From contig MOYA01000003.1 of assembly GCA_001899315.1 (NCBI GenBank), positions 210,369 to 274,368 of the forward strand: a stretch of 64,000 bases of DNA. Direction: 5' to 3'. Origin of the DNA: Candidatus Obscuribacter phosphatis. Its GTDB lineage: Bacteria > Cyanobacteriota > Vampirovibrionia > Obscuribacterales > Obscuribacteraceae. Both the position numbers and the translations under genes were made by a program. This document shows, piece by piece, positions 4,865-52,413 of this stretch. The notes under the pieces are model-generated. The model did no database searches. It was not told where the DNA came from and saw nothing but the letters and a program-made list of their open reading frames with translations. Every line of letters begins with the position of its first letter. The first letter of the stretch is position 1.

Positions 4865-5308
4865 GTGAGGCAAAAGTCTTTGGTAGCTTCGAAATTGTCC
4901 GTATCAACTCTAGTAAGTTCTGATGAGCCAGGGTCTCACAACGAGGTACAAGTGGTCAGCAAAGCCCGCCGATTTACCGCTAAGTTTAAGCAGAAAGTTC
5001 TGAAGGATATTGAGGCTTTGACGCCATCAGAGCGTGGTGCTTACCTAAGAAAGAACGGCTTGTATTCTTCGCACATTTGGCGTTGGCGCAAGCAAGTAGA
5101 TCAAAGTCCTGCTGGTGTTTTGGTGGAGGGCAGATCAGGTCGAAAATCTACAAAAGATCCGAATGCCGCTAAGATTCTCCAGCTAGAACGTGAAAATGAA
5201 AGGCTGAATCGAAAGCTCAAGCAGGCAGAGACAATCATTGAAGTCCAAAAAAAACTTTCAGATCTTCTGGGTCTGCCGATGGCGGATCATCAGAAGCCAG
5301 ATGTCTAG
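4865..5308 (+). CDS. IS3-family transposase OrfA
   Basis: 147 residues from GTG 4865. Residues about 35-90 form a helix-turn-helix (RRFTAKFKQKVL, then GAYLRKNGLYSSHIWRWRKQ), which binds the element ends. This is followed by a leucine-zipper-like coiled coil (LQLERENERLNRKLKQAETI). The product is the DNA-binding and regulatory half of the transposase. The A_AAA_AAA run at 5248-5254 lies inside its 3' part, and a -1 slip there joins it to orfB. Read without slipping, translation stops at 5308. Confidence 0.85.
   Translation: MRQKSLVASKLSVSTLVSSDEPGSHNEVQVVSKARRFTAKFKQKVLKDIEALTPSERGAYLRKNGLYSSHIWRWRKQVDQSPAGVLVEGRSGRKSTKDPNAAKILQLERENERLNRKLKQAETIIEVQKKLSDLLGLPMADHQKPDV
5248..5254 (+). promoter_or_regulatory. 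Programmed -1 ribosomal frameshift site (A AAA AAA)
   Basis: Eight A residues at 5247-5254 give the heptamer A_AAA_AAA exactly in the orfA phase (codons CAA AAA AAA CTT). A -1 slip moves translation into the orfB phase, which is open from here through 5335 and on to 6378. Such heptamers control OrfAB production in IS3-family elements. No stimulatory stem-loop was examined in detail. Confidence 0.75.
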
Positions 5309-5334
5309 AAGCTATCGCTGAGCTATCTGAGACA

Positions 5335-6378
5335 GTGGGTGTGGCCAATGCCTGTACTGCCTTAGGTGTTTCAAGGGCAACTTTCTACAGAAGCTTAAAG
5401 CCAAAGAAAGAACCAGAAAAGAAGGCCAGAGCTGCCCCGAAGAGAAGATTGTCTGATCCGGAAAGAGCGAATATTCTGGATGTACTAAATAGCGAGCGCT
5501 TCGTAGACTTGGCCCCGAGTCAAGTGTACGCGCGCCTTTTAGATGATGGCATCTATCTTTGTTCTGTTTCGACTATGTATAGAATCTTACGAACCGCTGG
5601 CGCAGTACTTGAACGCCGACGTCAACGGAGGCATCGAGAGTACAAAAAGCCTGAGTTGCTGGCCACTGCACCTAACCAGGTGTGGAGCTGGGACATCACC
5701 AAAGTTCGAGGTCCTGAGAAATTAGTCTATTTCCACTTGTATGTCATTATCGATATTTACAGCCGTTATGTAGTTGGCTGGCTCGTTGCAGATAGAGAGT
5801 CTGGCGCATTAGCTGAAGCCCTAATTCAAGAGTGCTGTAATAGACAAAAGATAGAGCACAATCAGCTCATCATTCACTCTGATCGTGGTGCCGCTATGAA
5901 ATCGAAGCCAGTTAGTGATCTATTGGAAGTTCTACAGGTAACGAAGTCACTGAGCCGTCCACGAGTTAGCAATGACAATCCGTATTCAGAGTCTCAGTTT
6001 AAAACGCTCAAGTATCATCCAGCTTTTCCTGATAGATTTGGATGCCTAGAGGATTCAAGAATTTTCTGTCAGAGCTTCTTTCACTGGTACAACAATGTGC
6101 ACTACCACAGCTCTTTAGCTTTGTTGACTCCATCTACAATTCACAACCAGCAGTCAGCAGCTATTTTGGAGCAACGAGCAAACGTCCTCCAGAATGCTCA
6201 TGCTCTTAATCCAGAGCGTTTCGTCAAAGGAATTCCCAAACCAGCTCAGCCACTGACTGCTGCATGGATCAATCCACCACAGTTCAATCAAACCGAGATG
6301 GGAGCTCTCAGCTCTGCTGAGCGTTCCCATCTCGGAACGCAGGCATTGGCAATGCCTGCAGCCAAGCAAGCTACCTAG
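5335..6378 (+). CDS. IS3-family transposase OrfB (DDE integrase catalytic part)
   Basis: 347 residues if started at GTG 5335, but the phase is open upstream to the slippery site, so the natural product is probably the OrfAB fusion (4865-6378). After an HTH_21 helix region (residues about 30-90), the rve integrase core carries the DDE triad: WSWDITK, HSDRGAAMKS and NPYSESQFKTLKY. The C-terminus reads FFHWYNNVHYHSSL and LLTPSTIH, as in this IS3 branch. All catalytic residues are present. The last 30 codons contain two strong hairpins (6293-6335 and 6339-6359). Confidence 0.9.
   Translation: MGVANACTALGVSRATFYRSLKPKKEPEKKARAAPKRRLSDPERANILDVLNSERFVDLAPSQVYARLLDDGIYLCSVSTMYRILRTAGAVLERRRQRRHREYKKPELLATAPNQVWSWDITKVRGPEKLVYFHLYVIIDIYSRYVVGWLVADRESGALAEALIQECCNRQKIEHNQLIIHSDRGAAMKSKPVSDLLEVLQVTKSLSRPRVSNDNPYSESQFKTLKYHPAFPDRFGCLEDSRIFCQSFFHWYNNVHYHSSLALLTPSTIHNQQSAAILEQRANVLQNAHALNPERFVKGIPKPAQPLTAAWINPPQFNQTEMGALSSAERSHLGTQALAMPAAKQAT
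6293..6359 (+). repeat. Two perfect hairpins at the 3' end of orfB
   Basis: The first has an 11-bp outer stem, CCGAGATGGGA (6293-6303) against TCCCATCTCGG (6325-6335), with an inner CTCAGC/GCTGAG stem. The second is GCAGGCATTG (6339-6348) against CAATGCCTGC (6350-6359) with a one-base loop. Neither is followed by a T-run, so they are not standard terminators. They may fold in mRNA or as single-stranded DNA. Confidence 0.8.
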
Positions 6379-10460: not shown

Positions 10461-11783
10461 GTGACTACAGAATTACATTCACAACCACGAAATGATCGTG
10501 TCTTGGACTCTGGAAATAAGAGTGCCAATAATGACACCTTCAATACTAGGGAGCTGTATCGCGACCTACCAAGTCTCAACCAGACAAATCGGGCAAACGA
10601 GGATCTGACCAGAGAAGGAAACTTACCAAATATCAAAATCGCCGAAGCCGGACGCCACACCTTATCTCCAGCCTGGCGCGATTCTGTTACCGACACCGGT
10701 CGTGGCTCTATCACCGATACCGGTCGTGGCTCTGTTACCGACACCGGTCGCGGCTCTATCACCGACACCGGTCGTGGCTCTGTCACCGATACCGGTCGTG
10801 GCTCTGTCACCGACACCGGTCGTGGGTCTATCACCGACACCGGTCGCGGCTCTATCACCGACAGCGGTCGCGGCTCTATCACCGACACCGGTCGCGGGTC
10901 TATTAATGATCGCGGCAACTCAGTTAGCGACCGGGGCATCGAAAGACCAAAACCAGCAGAAAAACCCGATGTGCCGGCCAGAGCCTTTACTATGGACCTG
11001 AAGAACCACGCAGCCAATCACGGCAAACCAGATGCCCTAGTCTACCTGCCGCGCAACTTCGATCCTGAAAAACCAATCAATCTAGTCATCTACAACCACG
11101 GTTGGCGCTCTACAGCCACCAGCTCATACAAAAACGAACGGCTTGGCGATCAAATGACCGGTGCGCCACCAAATACAGTACTGGTCATTCCTGAATGGCA
11201 GCGCAATCCGGGTGCTGAAAACGGCGACCAAGGAGCCTTGGCCGGTCAGGGCAAGTACGCCGCCATGCTGCAGGAAATCATGAATAAGACTCCTGGTCTG
11301 AAAGGCAAAAACATCAGCGATCTTGAGTCTATCAATATTGTTTCCCATTCAGCCGGCTATAATCCGACCACAAAGATGATCTACGACCCAACCATTGGTC
11401 CCAAGGTGAAAAGCCTGACAATGCTTGATTCAGCCTATAACGGACCCGCCCTCAATGGATGGTTGGCCAAAAATGCCCGAGAACTTGCCAGTGGAGAAAA
11501 GCAATTTATCAATATTTTCAATGACACCACAAAAGAAAGTCTGGCTCAAGCCAAGTTTGTCAAAGAAACCTTGGGTAAAGCCGGCTTGTCCCCGGCACTT
11601 GTGCAAGAAGATTATAAAAACGGCAAGCGACCAATCTCGAAAGAAACTGTCGGCGCTAATGGAATTATCTTCAAGCGCAGCGACTTAACCACCGGCGGCA
11701 GCGGTGCCCATGGTGCCATGCCTAAGCTCTTCTTCTCGACCGTACTGGAAGGAGCTAATCTGAGAAGGCAGAGGGGCCGCTGA
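10461..11783 (+). CDS. Repeat-bearing alpha/beta hydrolase
   Basis: 440 residues from GTG 10461. Residues 1-75 are polar and probably disordered. Residues 78-149 are nine copies of an 8-residue unit, D[TS]GRGS[IV]T. From about 170 an alpha/beta-hydrolase fold follows: PINLVIYNHGW (oxyanion-hole HG near 213), VSHSAGYN (nucleophile Ser in S-x-S-x-G near 297), LTMLDSAYNG, and GAHGAMPK near the end as candidate acid and base. The substrate is unknown; lipase, esterase or peptidase are all possible. No Sec signal is present. The kinase gene starts 30 nt downstream and may be co-transcribed. Confidence 0.7.
   Translation: MTTELHSQPRNDRVLDSGNKSANNDTFNTRELYRDLPSLNQTNRANEDLTREGNLPNIKIAEAGRHTLSPAWRDSVTDTGRGSITDTGRGSVTDTGRGSITDTGRGSVTDTGRGSVTDTGRGSITDTGRGSITDSGRGSITDTGRGSINDRGNSVSDRGIERPKPAEKPDVPARAFTMDLKNHAANHGKPDALVYLPRNFDPEKPINLVIYNHGWRSTATSSYKNERLGDQMTGAPPNTVLVIPEWQRNPGAENGDQGALAGQGKYAAMLQEIMNKTPGLKGKNISDLESINIVSHSAGYNPTTKMIYDPTIGPKVKSLTMLDSAYNGPALNGWLAKNARELASGEKQFINIFNDTTKESLAQAKFVKETLGKAGLSPALVQEDYKNGKRPISKETVGANGIIFKRSDLTTGGSGAHGAMPKLFFSTVLEGANLRRQRGR
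10692..10907 (+). repeat. Coding 24-bp minisatellite, nine units
   Basis: Nine head-to-tail 24-bp units encode D[TS]GRGS[IV][TN]. Differences are mostly at synonymous positions (ACC/ACT-type, CGT/CGC) and the Ile/Val switch. The unit is a multiple of 3, so copy-number change would alter spacer length without breaking the frame. The repeat also creates long spurious open frames on both strands. Confidence 0.95.
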
Positions 11784-15064: not shown

Positions 15065-16414
15065 ATGACTCAAAGAGACGACGATACAAAAACAAAACTG
15101 TCAAAACAGTCAAAAAAAGACCAATTCGAGTCAATGACCGACTTGGCGGCAGCCAGTGGTCTGGGGCAACAGAAAGAGACCTTTGAAATCTTCACAGGAG
15201 ACGAGGTCGTTGCCTCAAAACGGGTGAAACCACAAGTCACCGATAAAGAGAAGGCTCTGTTGGAGAAATTTGGCACGCCACCGCCGCAAGCGCCAAGAAC
15301 AGCCAGAGTCAGCGACAGCGCCTCTGACCCAGCCAGGCAAGCCATGGCGGCAGATCTTGAAAACGCCGGCTTAGAGCTATTGGGCGCCCTAGGTCAAAAC
15401 CTCACTCTTTTAGATCTAGACCAAGAGAAAAAGCGCCATGCCCTTGTGCAGGCGGTTAGAGAAGTGGTGGCGGATAGCCGCGTTGACGGCACGATAGCGA
15501 CGGTGGCGGCTTTATTGGCGGGGTATTACCGCAATAGCAGAGAGAAAGTGGAAGAAGATGACTTCGATTGGTACGATGAAGATGGACTTTTGAGTTTTGG
15601 CTATTTTGCCGCCGACCGCTTCAGCCTCTTCGAAAGCAAAAAGCAGGCCTCTCTACTTTTGCCCGAACAGCCAAAACTGCAAGATAAATCAGACGAGCAA
15701 TTTAAAGACTGGTGCGCCGGTTTTGCCCCATCCGAAAACTTTCTTTTAGCCTTGAGAGGCTGCCTTAAAGATGGCATTATCGAGCTGTCGCAACTGATTA
15801 GACCAGGCAAAACAAGTAATCAGACAAATCAAGGCAATCAAGTAAATCAAACAAATACATATCAAATCACTTTTGGCGGCGCCATCGCACCAATCACTGT
15901 GGAAGAGACAAGCGCAGGCGAATTAGTTTATGGCGCCGCCCACTATGGCTTTCGCTATCTAACCTTACTTGAAAAAGCCTATGGTCATTATTTGACGGCA
16001 GCCATGGCTAAAGACGCGCGCCCCATCTTGGCTCAAGACGGCGCCTGGCAAGCCCACAATATTACTAAAGCCCATTTGCCCTTAAGACTGCTTTCGGGCA
16101 AAGCACCATTCTTGGTATCAAGAACAGAAAGTCGAAATGAGCTTGACTTAGAAAGCTTCAAATCTAGGGCAGCAGCTCTGCTGAGAGAGGCACGCAGCCG
16201 AGAGCAGACTGTCTATGCCCTCAAACAAGACAAGCGCTTTAAGAGCAATACCAAAGTAGCGGCCGCGCTCAAGCATATAGCTCTAGAATTCGACGAGACA
16301 CAAACAGCTTGGCTTGTGCAATTTGACAACCTGGGCAAACTAGAGCGACAGCCTCTCAATCTGGAAGAACTCTTGCGAGAGACTCTGCTGTTTTATAGTC
16401 TCACTACTGGCTAG
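15065..16414 (+). CDS. Soluble hypothetical protein, 449 aa
   Basis: ATG 15065 gives a protein with a disordered, charged first 90 residues (MTQRDDDTKTKLSKQSKKDQ onward), then a folded mixed alpha/beta body. Notable stretches are DFDWYDEDGLLSFGYFAADR, an Asn/Gln-rich linker of NQTNQGNQVNQTN type, and YGAAHYGFRYLTLLEKAYGHY. No signal peptide, membrane span or known catalytic motif. The last 11 bp overlap the convergent MshEN gene. I do not recognise a family. Confidence 0.6.
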   Translation: MTQRDDDTKTKLSKQSKKDQFESMTDLAAASGLGQQKETFEIFTGDEVVASKRVKPQVTDKEKALLEKFGTPPPQAPRTARVSDSASDPARQAMAADLENAGLELLGALGQNLTLLDLDQEKKRHALVQAVREVVADSRVDGTIATVAALLAGYYRNSREKVEEDDFDWYDEDGLLSFGYFAADRFSLFESKKQASLLLPEQPKLQDKSDEQFKDWCAGFAPSENFLLALRGCLKDGIIELSQLIRPGKTSNQTNQGNQVNQTNTYQITFGGAIAPITVEETSAGELVYGAAHYGFRYLTLLEKAYGHYLTAAMAKDARPILAQDGAWQAHNITKAHLPLRLLSGKAPFLVSRTESRNELDLESFKSRAAALLREARSREQTVYALKQDKRFKSNTKVAAALKHIALEFDETQTAWLVQFDNLGKLERQPLNLEELLRETLLFYSLTTG

Positions 16415-17642
16415 AGGCGTCTTGACTGGAAACTTCCAGCCCCTCGGGCGCTTCTAAATCGACCGACCATTTCAGGTCTTGCAAAGCTTCTTCCACAGTC
16501 AATTTATGCTTGCGGGCATGATTGAGAGCCATAATTGCCTGTTCCATGGTCAACTTATCGCTTCTAATAAGAAGAAGCAGACGCAGAGCGGCATGAAGTG
16601 TATGTTCGTCGATAACGCCGGTGACCAAAAGCACCTTGCCTAAGAGAGCCGAATTGCGACTGGCATCTTTCAAAGCTTTCTTTATGTCGTTGTCGCCGAC
16701 AATACCGCAAGCTTTGAGCATCTCACCCAGCCTAACTCTTTCTCTTCTTTCACCGGCATCGAGATCGAGCTCAGAAATAGCCCGGGCTAGAGAAACATGA
16801 TTGACAGCTACTCTTCTCAGCGCTTCTGATGCTTTCAAGGCGCTCAAAGAATGACCGGATACAAGCTCTTGTAATTTGAGGGAGGCATCGAGAATGCGCT
16901 TCGAGATAAAGCCGCCTTCGACCAGCATCTGGCCCACCGGCGCTTCTCTTATCAAACCAAGTTCGAGGGCTGTCATCAAATCAGGCTCAGAGACAAGGCC
17001 TGAGAGCACTAAAAGTTCACCGAGTTTGACTCTTTGCCGGGGCGGCGGCTTGTAAAAGCCAAGATCCATCAAAGAGACTTCGATATTGACCCGGCGGAAG
17101 CGACTGCTTTGCAGAGCCTGCACCGCTTGCTCGGGCGAAATTTTGCCGTCGCGCACCAAAACCTGGGCAGTGAGCGCCGCCGAGAGCATTTCTTCCGAAA
17201 TGACACTGGTGAGAACCAAAACGCGACCCACGGGCAGACCGGTCTCGTGAGAGGTTCTAAGAACGTCTTTCAACTGTGATTTAGTCAATACATGTGCTTC
17301 GACAAGCAACTCACCGAGGCGAAAGGTGGGCTCGGCAGTCTCTCGGGCAAAGCCCACCGCCTTCAAGCAACGCTCAAAGTCCATGCCTTTCTTTGACATA
17401 AGTTGTATGGCTTCACGCGCCTTCTCAGTGGTTAGGGCACCGTCCTTAACTAAAGACTGTGCCCTGACAGCAGCTTCCAATTGCCGCTCACTAATATAGC
17501 CGCACATGACCAAAACGCGACCCATGGGCAAACCAGTCTCTGAGGATAACTCGATGGCATGCTCCAATTCAGCCTGGGTCAAGACAGAAGATGAAAGGAG
17601 CAGTTCTCCCAGTCGTTGAGAAGTTTTTGTTTCCGGTTTCAC
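16404..17642 (-). CDS. Four tandem MshEN-like (GspE N-terminal) domains, no ATPase
   Basis: 412 residues from ATG 17642. Four units of about 100 residues begin with [RK]LGE[LM]L at residues 10, 108, 207 and 304. Each continues in the MshEN pattern: 'LG.LL..s..lt...l..al..s', then a second half such as PMGRVLVMCGYISERQLEAA. In the T4P/T2SS ATPase MshE this doubled motif binds cyclic di-GMP. Here no Walker motifs follow, so the protein would be a binding or adaptor module only. The first repeat keeps the key 'RLGxxL' residues best; the third has Lys for Arg. Cytoplasmic. Nucleotide binding is inferred. Confidence 0.75.
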   Translation of the reverse strand: MKPETKTSQRLGELLLSSSVLTQAELEHAIELSSETGLPMGRVLVMCGYISERQLEAAVRAQSLVKDGALTTEKAREAIQLMSKKGMDFERCLKAVGFARETAEPTFRLGELLVEAHVLTKSQLKDVLRTSHETGLPVGRVLVLTSVISEEMLSAALTAQVLVRDGKISPEQAVQALQSSRFRRVNIEVSLMDLGFYKPPPRQRVKLGELLVLSGLVSEPDLMTALELGLIREAPVGQMLVEGGFISKRILDASLKLQELVSGHSLSALKASEALRRVAVNHVSLARAISELDLDAGERRERVRLGEMLKACGIVGDNDIKKALKDASRNSALLGKVLLVTGVIDEHTLHAALRLLLLIRSDKLTMEQAIMALNHARKHKLTVEEALQDLKWSVDLEAPEGLEVSSQDASSQ

Positions 17643-17713: not shown

Positions 17714-17740
17714 AAAAAAAGCTGCCCTTTGCAGGCAGCT
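17714..17740 (-). terminator. Rho-independent terminator of tRNA-Glu
   Basis: On the minus strand AGCTGCC and GGCAGCT form a 7-bp stem around a short loop, followed by seven T. It lies 25 nt past the tRNA 3' end, correctly placed to end that transcript. Confidence 0.8.
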
Positions 17741-17764
17741 CCGAGCTTTTGCTCTTTTAAAATT

Positions 17765-17837
17765 TACCCCCAGGGGAATTCGAATCCCCGTTACCTCCGT
17801 GAAAGGGAGGTGTCCTAGGCCTCTAGACGATGGGGGC
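17765..17837 (-). tRNA. tRNA-Glu (UUC)
   Basis: 73 nt on the minus strand starting GCCCCCATCGTCTAGAGGCC. The anticodon arm is CCTCC-CTTTCAC-GGAGG with anticodon TTC; the T-arm contains GATTCGAAT; the acceptor stem is GCCCCCA with TGGGGGT and discriminator A. CCA is not encoded. The sequence is close to the tRNA-Glu of cyanobacteria and plastids. A terminator follows. Confidence 0.95.
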
Positions 17838-18017
17838 ATGTCTAACGGTTTTGAGAGGATAACAAAACGCGACGAATAGTGTCAATAAGAGTTCAGGCTA
17901 AATCAATTTCCTGTTACTCGTAGTACCATGAGATACCACTTTGAAAGATATTCCACCCCGACAGAGTGGGCAATCAAAGAAATTCCATCCTCCCGGGCAT
18001 TGCTAAGCGAACGTAAC

Positions 18018-50673: not shown

Positions 50674-52413
50674 ATGTCAACAAAACCTGAAACCGAGCCG
50701 ATCCGGCATAGCGAAGCGCCTGCATCTCAGCGTCAAGACATAAGCGAACAGAACAGACAAGATCTCTCTAGATCGGTTTGGGATTCTTACTCTGACAAAC
50801 CGGCCATCGCCCGCGCTATGCCGCATAACAATGACAATACCAATGCCGCATCGGCGCTCTATCAAAACGACGGCAAGATGGTTCTGCCAGGAATAATGCT
50901 CGTCGGCGCAGATCTAGAGCGTGGTGCCGCAAGTGGTCAAGGCAGAGGGCTAGAGAGTGGTGCGGGGCAGAAACCCGAGAAGGCGAGCCAAGAAGAGAGC
51001 CTGAAAGCAAGAGTCTTAGACAATAATCTTAGCTCGGAAGAGCGCCTTAAGGCGGTAAAAGAGCTAGTCAACCTTGGAACAACCAATCTGAGCGCCAAAG
51101 ATCAACAGGGAAAAGACAGCAAGCTGCGCCTAGAAGTAGAGAAAGCCGGCAACCGTGAAATGGTGCATCTTTTTGTCAACGACGGCAAGGGCGAGAAGAC
51201 CGCTCTACGCGGTATCATGGATGGTGCACAAGTAGAAAAACAAATAGGCAATGGCAAACAAGTCTCGCTTGAGGGAAAAGGCTTTCACACACTAAAAGGT
51301 CTCAGTGAATCGAAGCAGCCCCAAGCAGGCAGAACCACCGAAGCAGAGAGAAAACCTGAAGCAGCCAAGCAACCTGAAGCTGCTAGACAAGCTGAAGCCG
51401 CCAAACAACCCGAAGCTGCTAAGCAACCTGAAGCAGCCAAGCAAGCCGAAGCTGCAAAACAAGCCGAAGCCGCCAAGCAAGCCGAAGCAGCCAAACAAGC
51501 CGAAGCCGCCAAGCAAGCCGAAGCCGCTAGACAAGCCGAAGCTGCTAGACAAGCCGAAGCTGCTAGACAAGCCGAAGCCGCTAAACAAGCTGAAGCCGCT
51601 AGACAAGCTGAAGCAGCTAAGCAACCAGATGCTGCTAGACAAACTGAGCCAGAAAAGCGAGTTGAGAGAGAGCAACAACCTGAGCCGGTCAATCTAGACG
51701 AGATGGAGAGACAAGAGAAGGTTGCCGCCAAGAAGACCAACCCAGACAGCCGTGAAACAAAGCCTGAAGCCAAGCCCAAGCCGGAGCTTCTCAATCCTGC
51801 CGAGAGCCAGGCAGAAGCAGGCGACAAGCCTAGACAGAGCCGCATTGTCCGCACTCTTTCGGAGCGCTCGCGCTTCTACACCCATCAAGACGATTCGAAG
51901 AGTTGCTCTGCCTTTTCTTTCGGCATGATGGCCGCCGATCACCTTTATGGCAGACCAGTCAAGCATGGCTCAGAGGCTCAGTATTTTAAAGAACTAGCCG
52001 GCACAATCAACCACGGCTATAGAGGCGATTTGAAATCGGTGGAAGCGAAACTACAGAAGATTGGTCTTGATGCAAAAGCCTACGAATATGGCTTTGGCAA
52101 CGTATCGAGAGAAAGCCTCAAAGATCTCAACCGCGAGCTCGACCAAGGAAAATCGGCAGTAGTGAAAGTAATCAACCCCACTACAAAGAACCCTCATTAC
52201 ATCTATGTGGCAGGCCGCGATAAGAATGGCGACTATATAGTCGGCGATCCGGCCAGAAGCAATCGCACCAATTCGGCGCCGGTCTCACCCGATTTTCTCT
52301 ATTCGATGATGAGACAGAGAGACGGCTTTGTCGTGGGAGGTGCACCAAAAGATAGTGCCGGACGCGTATTCAACGTGCCCAGCACTGAAATGTCTCGAAG
52401 ACGCAACCGATAA
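50674..52413 (+). CDS. Repeat-rich protein with C-terminal C39-like peptidase domain
   Basis: 579 residues from ATG 50674. Residues 1-110 are polar and disordered; about 110-215 is a small charged domain. Residues 228-323 are sixteen hexapeptides [PA]EAA[KR]Q, likely one long helix. The tip (about 405-565) looks papain-like: SKSCSAFSFGMMAADHLYGR (candidate Cys), NPHYIYVAGRDKNGDYIVGD (His, then Asp in GDPARS), in the order seen in C39/C39-like peptidases. No Sec signal, so export would need another route. Its substrate is unknown; self-processing or toxin roles are possible. Convergent with rplI, with no space between. Confidence 0.7.
   Translation: MSTKPETEPIRHSEAPASQRQDISEQNRQDLSRSVWDSYSDKPAIARAMPHNNDNTNAASALYQNDGKMVLPGIMLVGADLERGAASGQGRGLESGAGQKPEKASQEESLKARVLDNNLSSEERLKAVKELVNLGTTNLSAKDQQGKDSKLRLEVEKAGNREMVHLFVNDGKGEKTALRGIMDGAQVEKQIGNGKQVSLEGKGFHTLKGLSESKQPQAGRTTEAERKPEAAKQPEAARQAEAAKQPEAAKQPEAAKQAEAAKQAEAAKQAEAAKQAEAAKQAEAARQAEAARQAEAARQAEAAKQAEAARQAEAAKQPDAARQTEPEKRVEREQQPEPVNLDEMERQEKVAAKKTNPDSRETKPEAKPKPELLNPAESQAEAGDKPRQSRIVRTLSERSRFYTHQDDSKSCSAFSFGMMAADHLYGRPVKHGSEAQYFKELAGTINHGYRGDLKSVEAKLQKIGLDAKAYEYGFGNVSRESLKDLNRELDQGKSAVVKVINPTTKNPHYIYVAGRDKNGDYIVGDPARSNRTNSAPVSPDFLYSMMRQRDGFVVGGAPKDSAGRVFNVPSTEMSRRRNR
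51355..51642 (+). repeat. Coding 18-bp repeat, sixteen units
   Basis: Sixteen tandem 18-bp units encode [PA][ED]AA[KR]Q. Codons vary (GCC/GCT/GCA, AAG/AAA), which shows the array is old or codon-drifting. The frame is kept by any copy-number change. The array makes long false open frames on both strands. Confidence 0.95.

Follow-up and report, generated by a model that had tools for sequence, protein, structure and literature searches.

The gene at positions 16404-17642 of the window, that is, of the whole 64,000-nucleotide stretch of Candidatus Obscuribacter phosphatis DNA analysed here, encodes a 412-aa protein made of four tandem MshEN_N units. In this study, we believe that the protein may act as a soluble receptor or adaptor with several sites for c-di-GMP or a closely related molecule, which would be bound in a half-modified MshEN mode. 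Judging from the sequence and the models, the probability of this reading is about 0.5. The features are as follows.

17764-17838, minus strand: tRNA-Glu(ttc), the upstream neighbour, conserved in six relatives
17718-17742, minus strand: terminator-like hairpin between tRNA-Glu and the four-unit gene (consensus match only)
16404-17642, minus strand: CDS of the 412-aa four-unit protein, GTG start, stop included (dN/dS and synteny)
17457-17615, minus strand: unit 1 MshEN_N motif, aa 10-62, RLG...S24 / PMGR...Q24
17340-17456, minus strand: unit 1 extra helical hairpin, aa 63-101, helices H72-85 and H89-95 in the full-length model
17163-17321, minus strand: unit 2 MshEN_N motif, aa 108-160, RLG...S24 / PVGR...Q24, model pLDDT 90.6
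17043-17162, minus strand: unit 2 extra helical hairpin, aa 161-200, R164 invariant and D165 near-invariant
16869-17027, minus strand: unit 3 MshEN_N motif, aa 206-258, KLG...G24 / PVGQ...Q24
16752-16868, minus strand: unit 3 extra helical hairpin, aa 259-297 (full-length model)
16575-16733, minus strand: unit 4 MshEN_N motif, degenerate, aa 304-356, RLG...A24 / LLGK...L24
16455-16574, minus strand: unit 4 hairpin, ending in the conserved Trp W392 (conservation and full-length model)

ORF 16404-17642 is a real, conserved gene, because dN is low relative to dS in comparison with the L096 orthologue (0.006 and 0.423, respectively; dN/dS ~0.014) and the tRNA-Glu/radical-SAM/ROK neighbourhood is conserved. 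The tRNA-Glu and the radical-SAM gene were kept beside orthologues at six loci, and the ROK gene was also kept wherever the locus extends to it. The genes downstream of the orthologues vary among relatives. The four-unit gene stands alone, and its end overlaps the convergent ORF 15065-16414 by 11 bases. The hairpin at 17718-17742, a consensus match only, suggests that the gene is transcribed separately from tRNA-Glu. Elsewhere in the window, at 10461-11783, approximately 10 copies of a TDTGRGS[IV] repeat precede an esterase-like ORF. A transposase pair of two ORFs lies at 4865-6378 and is insertion-sequence-like (IS3-type by eye). An AEAAKQ-type repeat was seen at 51285-51854 inside ORF 50674-52413, where long ORFs are open in other frames on both strands.

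NCBIfam model NF053729 (c-di-GMP_motif), which describes the 53-residue MshE-related c-di-GMP motif and has a curated cut-off of 38 bits, matched the 412-aa protein at 159.8 bits (E 9.7e-48) over 5 stretches. The profile search of the genome gave four separate matches in the frame of the ORF (17457-17615, 17163-17321, ~16872-17027, and 16584-16733). The units start at aa 10, 108, 206, and 304, with a spacing of approximately 98 residues, and each consists of the 53-residue double motif followed by approximately 40 residues modelled as two further helices. The initial annotation, which described four tandem MshEN-like domains without a secretion ATPase, was right about the number of units, about the LGE[LM]L start of each (residues 11, 109, 207, and 305) and about the ATPase, since no T2SSE domain (PF00437) was found in the protein with Pfam. 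It was too generous about the domain itself. The alpha/beta subdomain MshEN_C (Pfam PF05157) was not found in the 412-aa protein, and the model of unit 2 was all-helical. In the PilB-like protein of the same genome (L046), PF05157 matches residues 64-140, downstream of the motif. Because PF05157 has no match and an extra hairpin stands in the place of MshEN_C, the protein is built from four MshEN_N units rather than from complete MshEN domains. No Pfam repeat family of the TPR or HEAT type matched the protein; its DUF4388 and SHOCT-like Pfam matches were weak, overlapped the units and were set aside.

The AlphaFold2 model of unit 2 (pLDDT 90.6, pTM 0.79) is a four-helix bundle, as is the MshEN domain of Vibrio cholerae MshE, and superposes on MshE with c-di-GMP (PDB 5HTL) at 0.6 Å over 54 residues. 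The deviation was approximately 1.1 Å from holo GSPII-B of PilF and 3.6 Å from the non-binding GSPII-A. Helix 1 of the model is short and starts at the LG of RLG. The nearest solved structures found by PDB search were the N-domains of MshE, PilF, and PilB. The full-length model of the four units had a pTM of 0.33, and its arrangement of units is unreliable. Designed proteins and fumarase, returned as look-alikes by a fold search with this model (E above 0.02), were dropped.

The MshEN motif of Wang et al. 2016 consists of two 24-residue motifs with a 5-residue spacer and Gly at position 3 of both. In MshE, c-di-GMP is contacted by Gly3 of both motifs, Leu2/17/21, Arg1, and Gln24 (PMC5013675). 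When the four units were aligned to MshE and these ligand residues were scored, the 24+5+24 layout with Gly3 was present in all four (8/8 half-sites), and Gly3 was invariant among orthologues in units 1-3. Positions 2, 17, and 21 were Leu, Ile, Val, or Met throughout (conservation p ~5e-5 in units 1-3). Thus far the units share with MshE the layout, both Gly3 residues and the Leu clusters. Position 1 of motif I was R/R/K/R in units 1-4, within the extended definition (Arg, Lys, or Leu), and position 1 of motif II was P/P/P/L, so that the consensus Arg is replaced by Pro in units 1-3 and by Leu in unit 4. Position 24 was S/S/G/A in motif I and Q/Q/Q/L in motif II. Of the ligand residues, therefore, units 1-3 retain both Gly, the Leu clusters, Arg or Lys at position 1 of motif I and the Gln of motif II, but the motif I Gln is gone from all four units, the motif II Arg is gone as well, and unit 4 also lacks the motif II Gln. 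Compared with MshE, the window protein further has four units, an extra helical hairpin, a motif II that starts with PxGR instead of RLG, and neither MshEN_C nor an ATPase.

Conservation was measured in 32 sequences, comprising the window protein plus the top match to it in other genomes. Positions 1, 3, 4, and 24 of motif II in units 1-3 had a mean entropy of 0.38, versus 1.62 overall, and none of 20,000 random position sets was as low; the same positions of unit 4 showed no such conservation. A divergent set was made of 20 four-unit proteins from other Obscuribacterales genomes, with 60 units scored. Motif I position 24 (Q32 in MshE) was S, G, A, or C in 57/60 units and Q in 1/60, while motif II position 24 (Q61 in MshE) was Gln in 59/60. 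In unit 2, Pro1, Gly3, Arg4, and Arg28 of motif II were found in 20/20 proteins, and Pro1, Arg4, and Arg28 were invariant among the orthologues too. Unit 4 was degenerate across the family. Because 57/60 tandem units have changed while 5/7 single-unit proteins of the window's genome keep both Gln, the loss of the motif I Gln belongs to the tandem family and is not a trait of the genome at large. C1:3127497 and C2:378530 are two such single-unit paralogues with both Gln.

The genome (5.49 Mb, order Obscuribacterales) has 60 NF053729 matches in 29 ORFs. An iterated unit profile found four units in 15 of these 29 motif-bearing ORFs; a sixteenth four-unit candidate (L052:5675-6907) is alike by eye. 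Each unit was nearest to the unit of the same rank in the paralogues (unit 1, 15/15; unit 2, 14/15; unit 3, 15/15; unit 4, 10/15). Since units of equal rank resemble each other between paralogues, the most likely history is a single assembly of the four-unit array, followed by multiplication of the entire gene. Some paralogues have TPR tails. Three other ORFs (L064:13301-15304, L051:4593-6560, and L051:10254-11849) join unit fragments and the C-terminal LGW-type unit of the family to a Ser/Thr kinase or to extended regions rich in Pro and Gly; this module travels independently of units 1-3. Many MshEN proteins per genome are also known from Myxococcus xanthus, with 22 genes (PMC5013675) or 17 (PMC8844925), but the genome studied here differs in its 29 motif-bearing ORFs and in a four-unit plan that is colinear and arose once. 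Fusions of MshEN to non-ATPase domains have been reported in bacteria generally.

Among the matches listed (best ~30 candidates per genome), all 39 sampled Obscuribacterales genomes contained matches, 3 to ~30 each; 33/39 had full-length matches and two (G309, G323) had weak matches only. In the rest of the class outside the order, matches were absent or marginal. In the 146-genome phylum sample, in which few candidates per genome were scored, full-length copies were found in 0/145 other genomes among the matches listed; these genomes gave short matches only (best E 2e-14). The order restriction was checked in this sample and in 84,980 genomes with stringent peptide patterns, and so far the four-unit family has been seen only in Obscuribacterales within that scope. 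Its named relatives are Candidatus Obscuribacterales or Melainabacteria MAGs, and no cultured representative of these bacteria is known. In other classes of the phylum, genomes such as G004, G007, G010, G013, G016, G018, and G021 have at least approximately 20 NF053729 matches each, often as single or paired motifs that score higher than those seen here. This abundance is a separate expansion of the motif. Nothing on Obscuribacter and c-di-GMP, or on tandem stand-alone MshEN, was found in the open-access literature.

Retention of the Gly, the Leu cluster, Arg/Lys1, and the motif II Gln under strong constraint makes the multivalent c-di-GMP receptor of the initial annotation plausible for units 1-3. 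In our model, each of these units would form a putative pocket for c-di-GMP or a closely related cyclic dinucleotide with guanine. A Leu cluster would support each guanine, whose Hoogsteen edge would face the backbone of the RLG or PxG turn. One of the two phosphate-ribose contacts would be made by the usual Gln of motif II, and at the other the Gln would be replaced by a small residue. The degenerate unit 4 would act as a cap or bind a partner. With ligand at up to three sites, the packing of the helical units could be altered, and the protein could then work as an adaptor or switch; several paralogues attach TPR or kinase modules, not an ATPase.

Known binders tolerate similar single deviations, and by analogy this would favour binding. 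PilF of Thermus thermophilus has three tandem GSPII (MshEN) domains (PMC11731258, PMC12002112), so that tandem units of differing ligand competence would be common to both proteins. Pro or Leu at motif II position 1 is tolerated in PilF too, and GSPII-B also has Gly-Arg at motif II positions 3-4. GSPII-B, with Leu1/Arg4 in motif II, has an affinity of 6 nM, and 950 nM in the single Gln mutant Q190E; GSPII-C, with Pro at motif II position 1, has ~500 nM (PMC11731258). Pro1 as proof of non-binding is therefore ruled out. PilF differs in having an ATPase and MshEN_C subdomains, and its GSPII-B and -C keep both Gln. The next-best NCBIfam relatives of the 412-aa protein by score were NF012033 and NF008411, of the NfrB type. 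NfrB of Escherichia coli binds c-di-GMP with a Kd of 1.0 μM (PMC8669469). Motif I in the K-12 sequence of NfrB starts with PLG and has Arg at position 24, so a P-L-G start and a missing motif I Gln occur in a proven binder; unlike the window protein, NfrB is fused to a membrane glycosyltransferase, and its deviations, including the Arg at position 24, are confined to motif I. Against binding, GSPII-A constructs of PilF lost it when the first residue of motif II was returned to Ser (PMC12002112), and the window protein has Pro or Leu there. Binding by these constructs required both Gln to be restored and a short helix 1. No measured precedent for the same combination of motif changes was found in the open-access literature. 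From the sequence, the models and these analogies, we put the chance that at least one unit directly binds c-di-GMP or a near relative at about one half.

The half-modified pocket could instead bind another nucleotide or metabolite, through the small residue of motif I and, in unit 2, Pro1, Arg4, Gln24, and Arg28 of motif II. Across the divergent set, motif I position 24 is replaced systematically and the replacement is strictly maintained, the three unit 2 residues Pro1, Arg4, and Arg28 are fixed, and most single-unit paralogues keep both Gln; the tandem family may thus have changed its ligand. We consider this unlikely, since the units retain the Gly turns and Leu clusters with which MshE reads both guanines, and the loss of one Gln is tolerated in NfrB and PilF Q190E. 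A helical-repeat scaffold derived from MshEN, which would hold protein partners and bind no small ligand, is also rather unlikely, although slightly less so. Its conserved residues would serve folding or interfaces; the degenerate unit 4, the TPR modules fused in several paralogues, the lack of an enzymatic output, and a hairpin that enlarges the helical surface all agree with it. Yet the most conserved polar positions are the ligand contacts of MshE (Gln24 and Arg4 of motif II), not the general surface, and they are conserved in units 1-3 only.

MshEN normally regulates PilB/GspE-type ATPases, and the genome has PilB and further T2SSE-type proteins. Soluble MshEN copies might therefore sequester c-di-GMP or occupy the ATPase hexamer, in line with the competitor of the pilus ATPase proposed in the initial annotation. 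That proposal found no specific support, because the MshEN of PilB is itself degenerate (Arg at position 24, and GEPISL where RLG would stand), neither the window gene nor the paralogue neighbours scanned had a visible pil gene next to them, and at least approximately 15 four-unit paralogues are hard to explain by one ATPase. We regard it as very improbable.

Of the 37 GGDEF matches in the genome, about half are strong and cover the full domain. Counted among the matches listed, GGDEF copy number correlated with family size across the 39 genomes (rho 0.86; 0.77 given genome size). The Ser/Thr kinase count also correlated with family size (0.75; among the matches listed in 39 related, not independent genomes). 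The GGDEF correlation was set aside as evidence for c-di-GMP because, with Ser/Thr kinases correlating as well, it is not specific. Such kinases are abundant in Obscuribacterales, with 96 first-look candidates in the window's genome and up to 329 in one relative. Tandem-unit genes clustered weakly with GGDEF genes: four lay within 2 kb of one, versus 0.9 expected (p 0.013), and the signal fades at 5-10 kb. At L059:3121-6497, a gene for 712 aa that contains DUF4388 and part of a GGDEF domain ends approximately 33 bases short of a four-unit gene in the same orientation. The two are possibly an enzyme-receptor pair, or the former is a degenerate sensor. No common partner appeared among the paralogue neighbours scanned (Mur ligase, patatin, TPR, ChlI-like, methyltransferase).

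In c-di-GMP signalling, more enzymes than receptors have long been known. Here, one genome combines 37 GGDEF matches with 29 ORFs that carry a c-di-GMP-type motif; roughly half of these ORFs follow one colinear four-unit plan, of which no description was found in the open-access literature. A bolder and rather doubtful idea is that the MshEN fold has given rise to a new receptor class, order-wide and in 3 to ~30 copies, with one half-site rebuilt (Gln to a small residue; PxGR...Q...RD in unit 2). It would sense a different nucleotide, or c-di-GMP asymmetrically, and be wired to TPR and kinase modules, not to pilus motors. With one Gln consistently lost, the other strictly kept and single-unit paralogues as an internal contrast, the family offers a sharp test of how the MshEN motif drifts. 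It also offers a first entry point to signalling in a non-photosynthetic sister lineage of the cyanobacteria that has been little studied.
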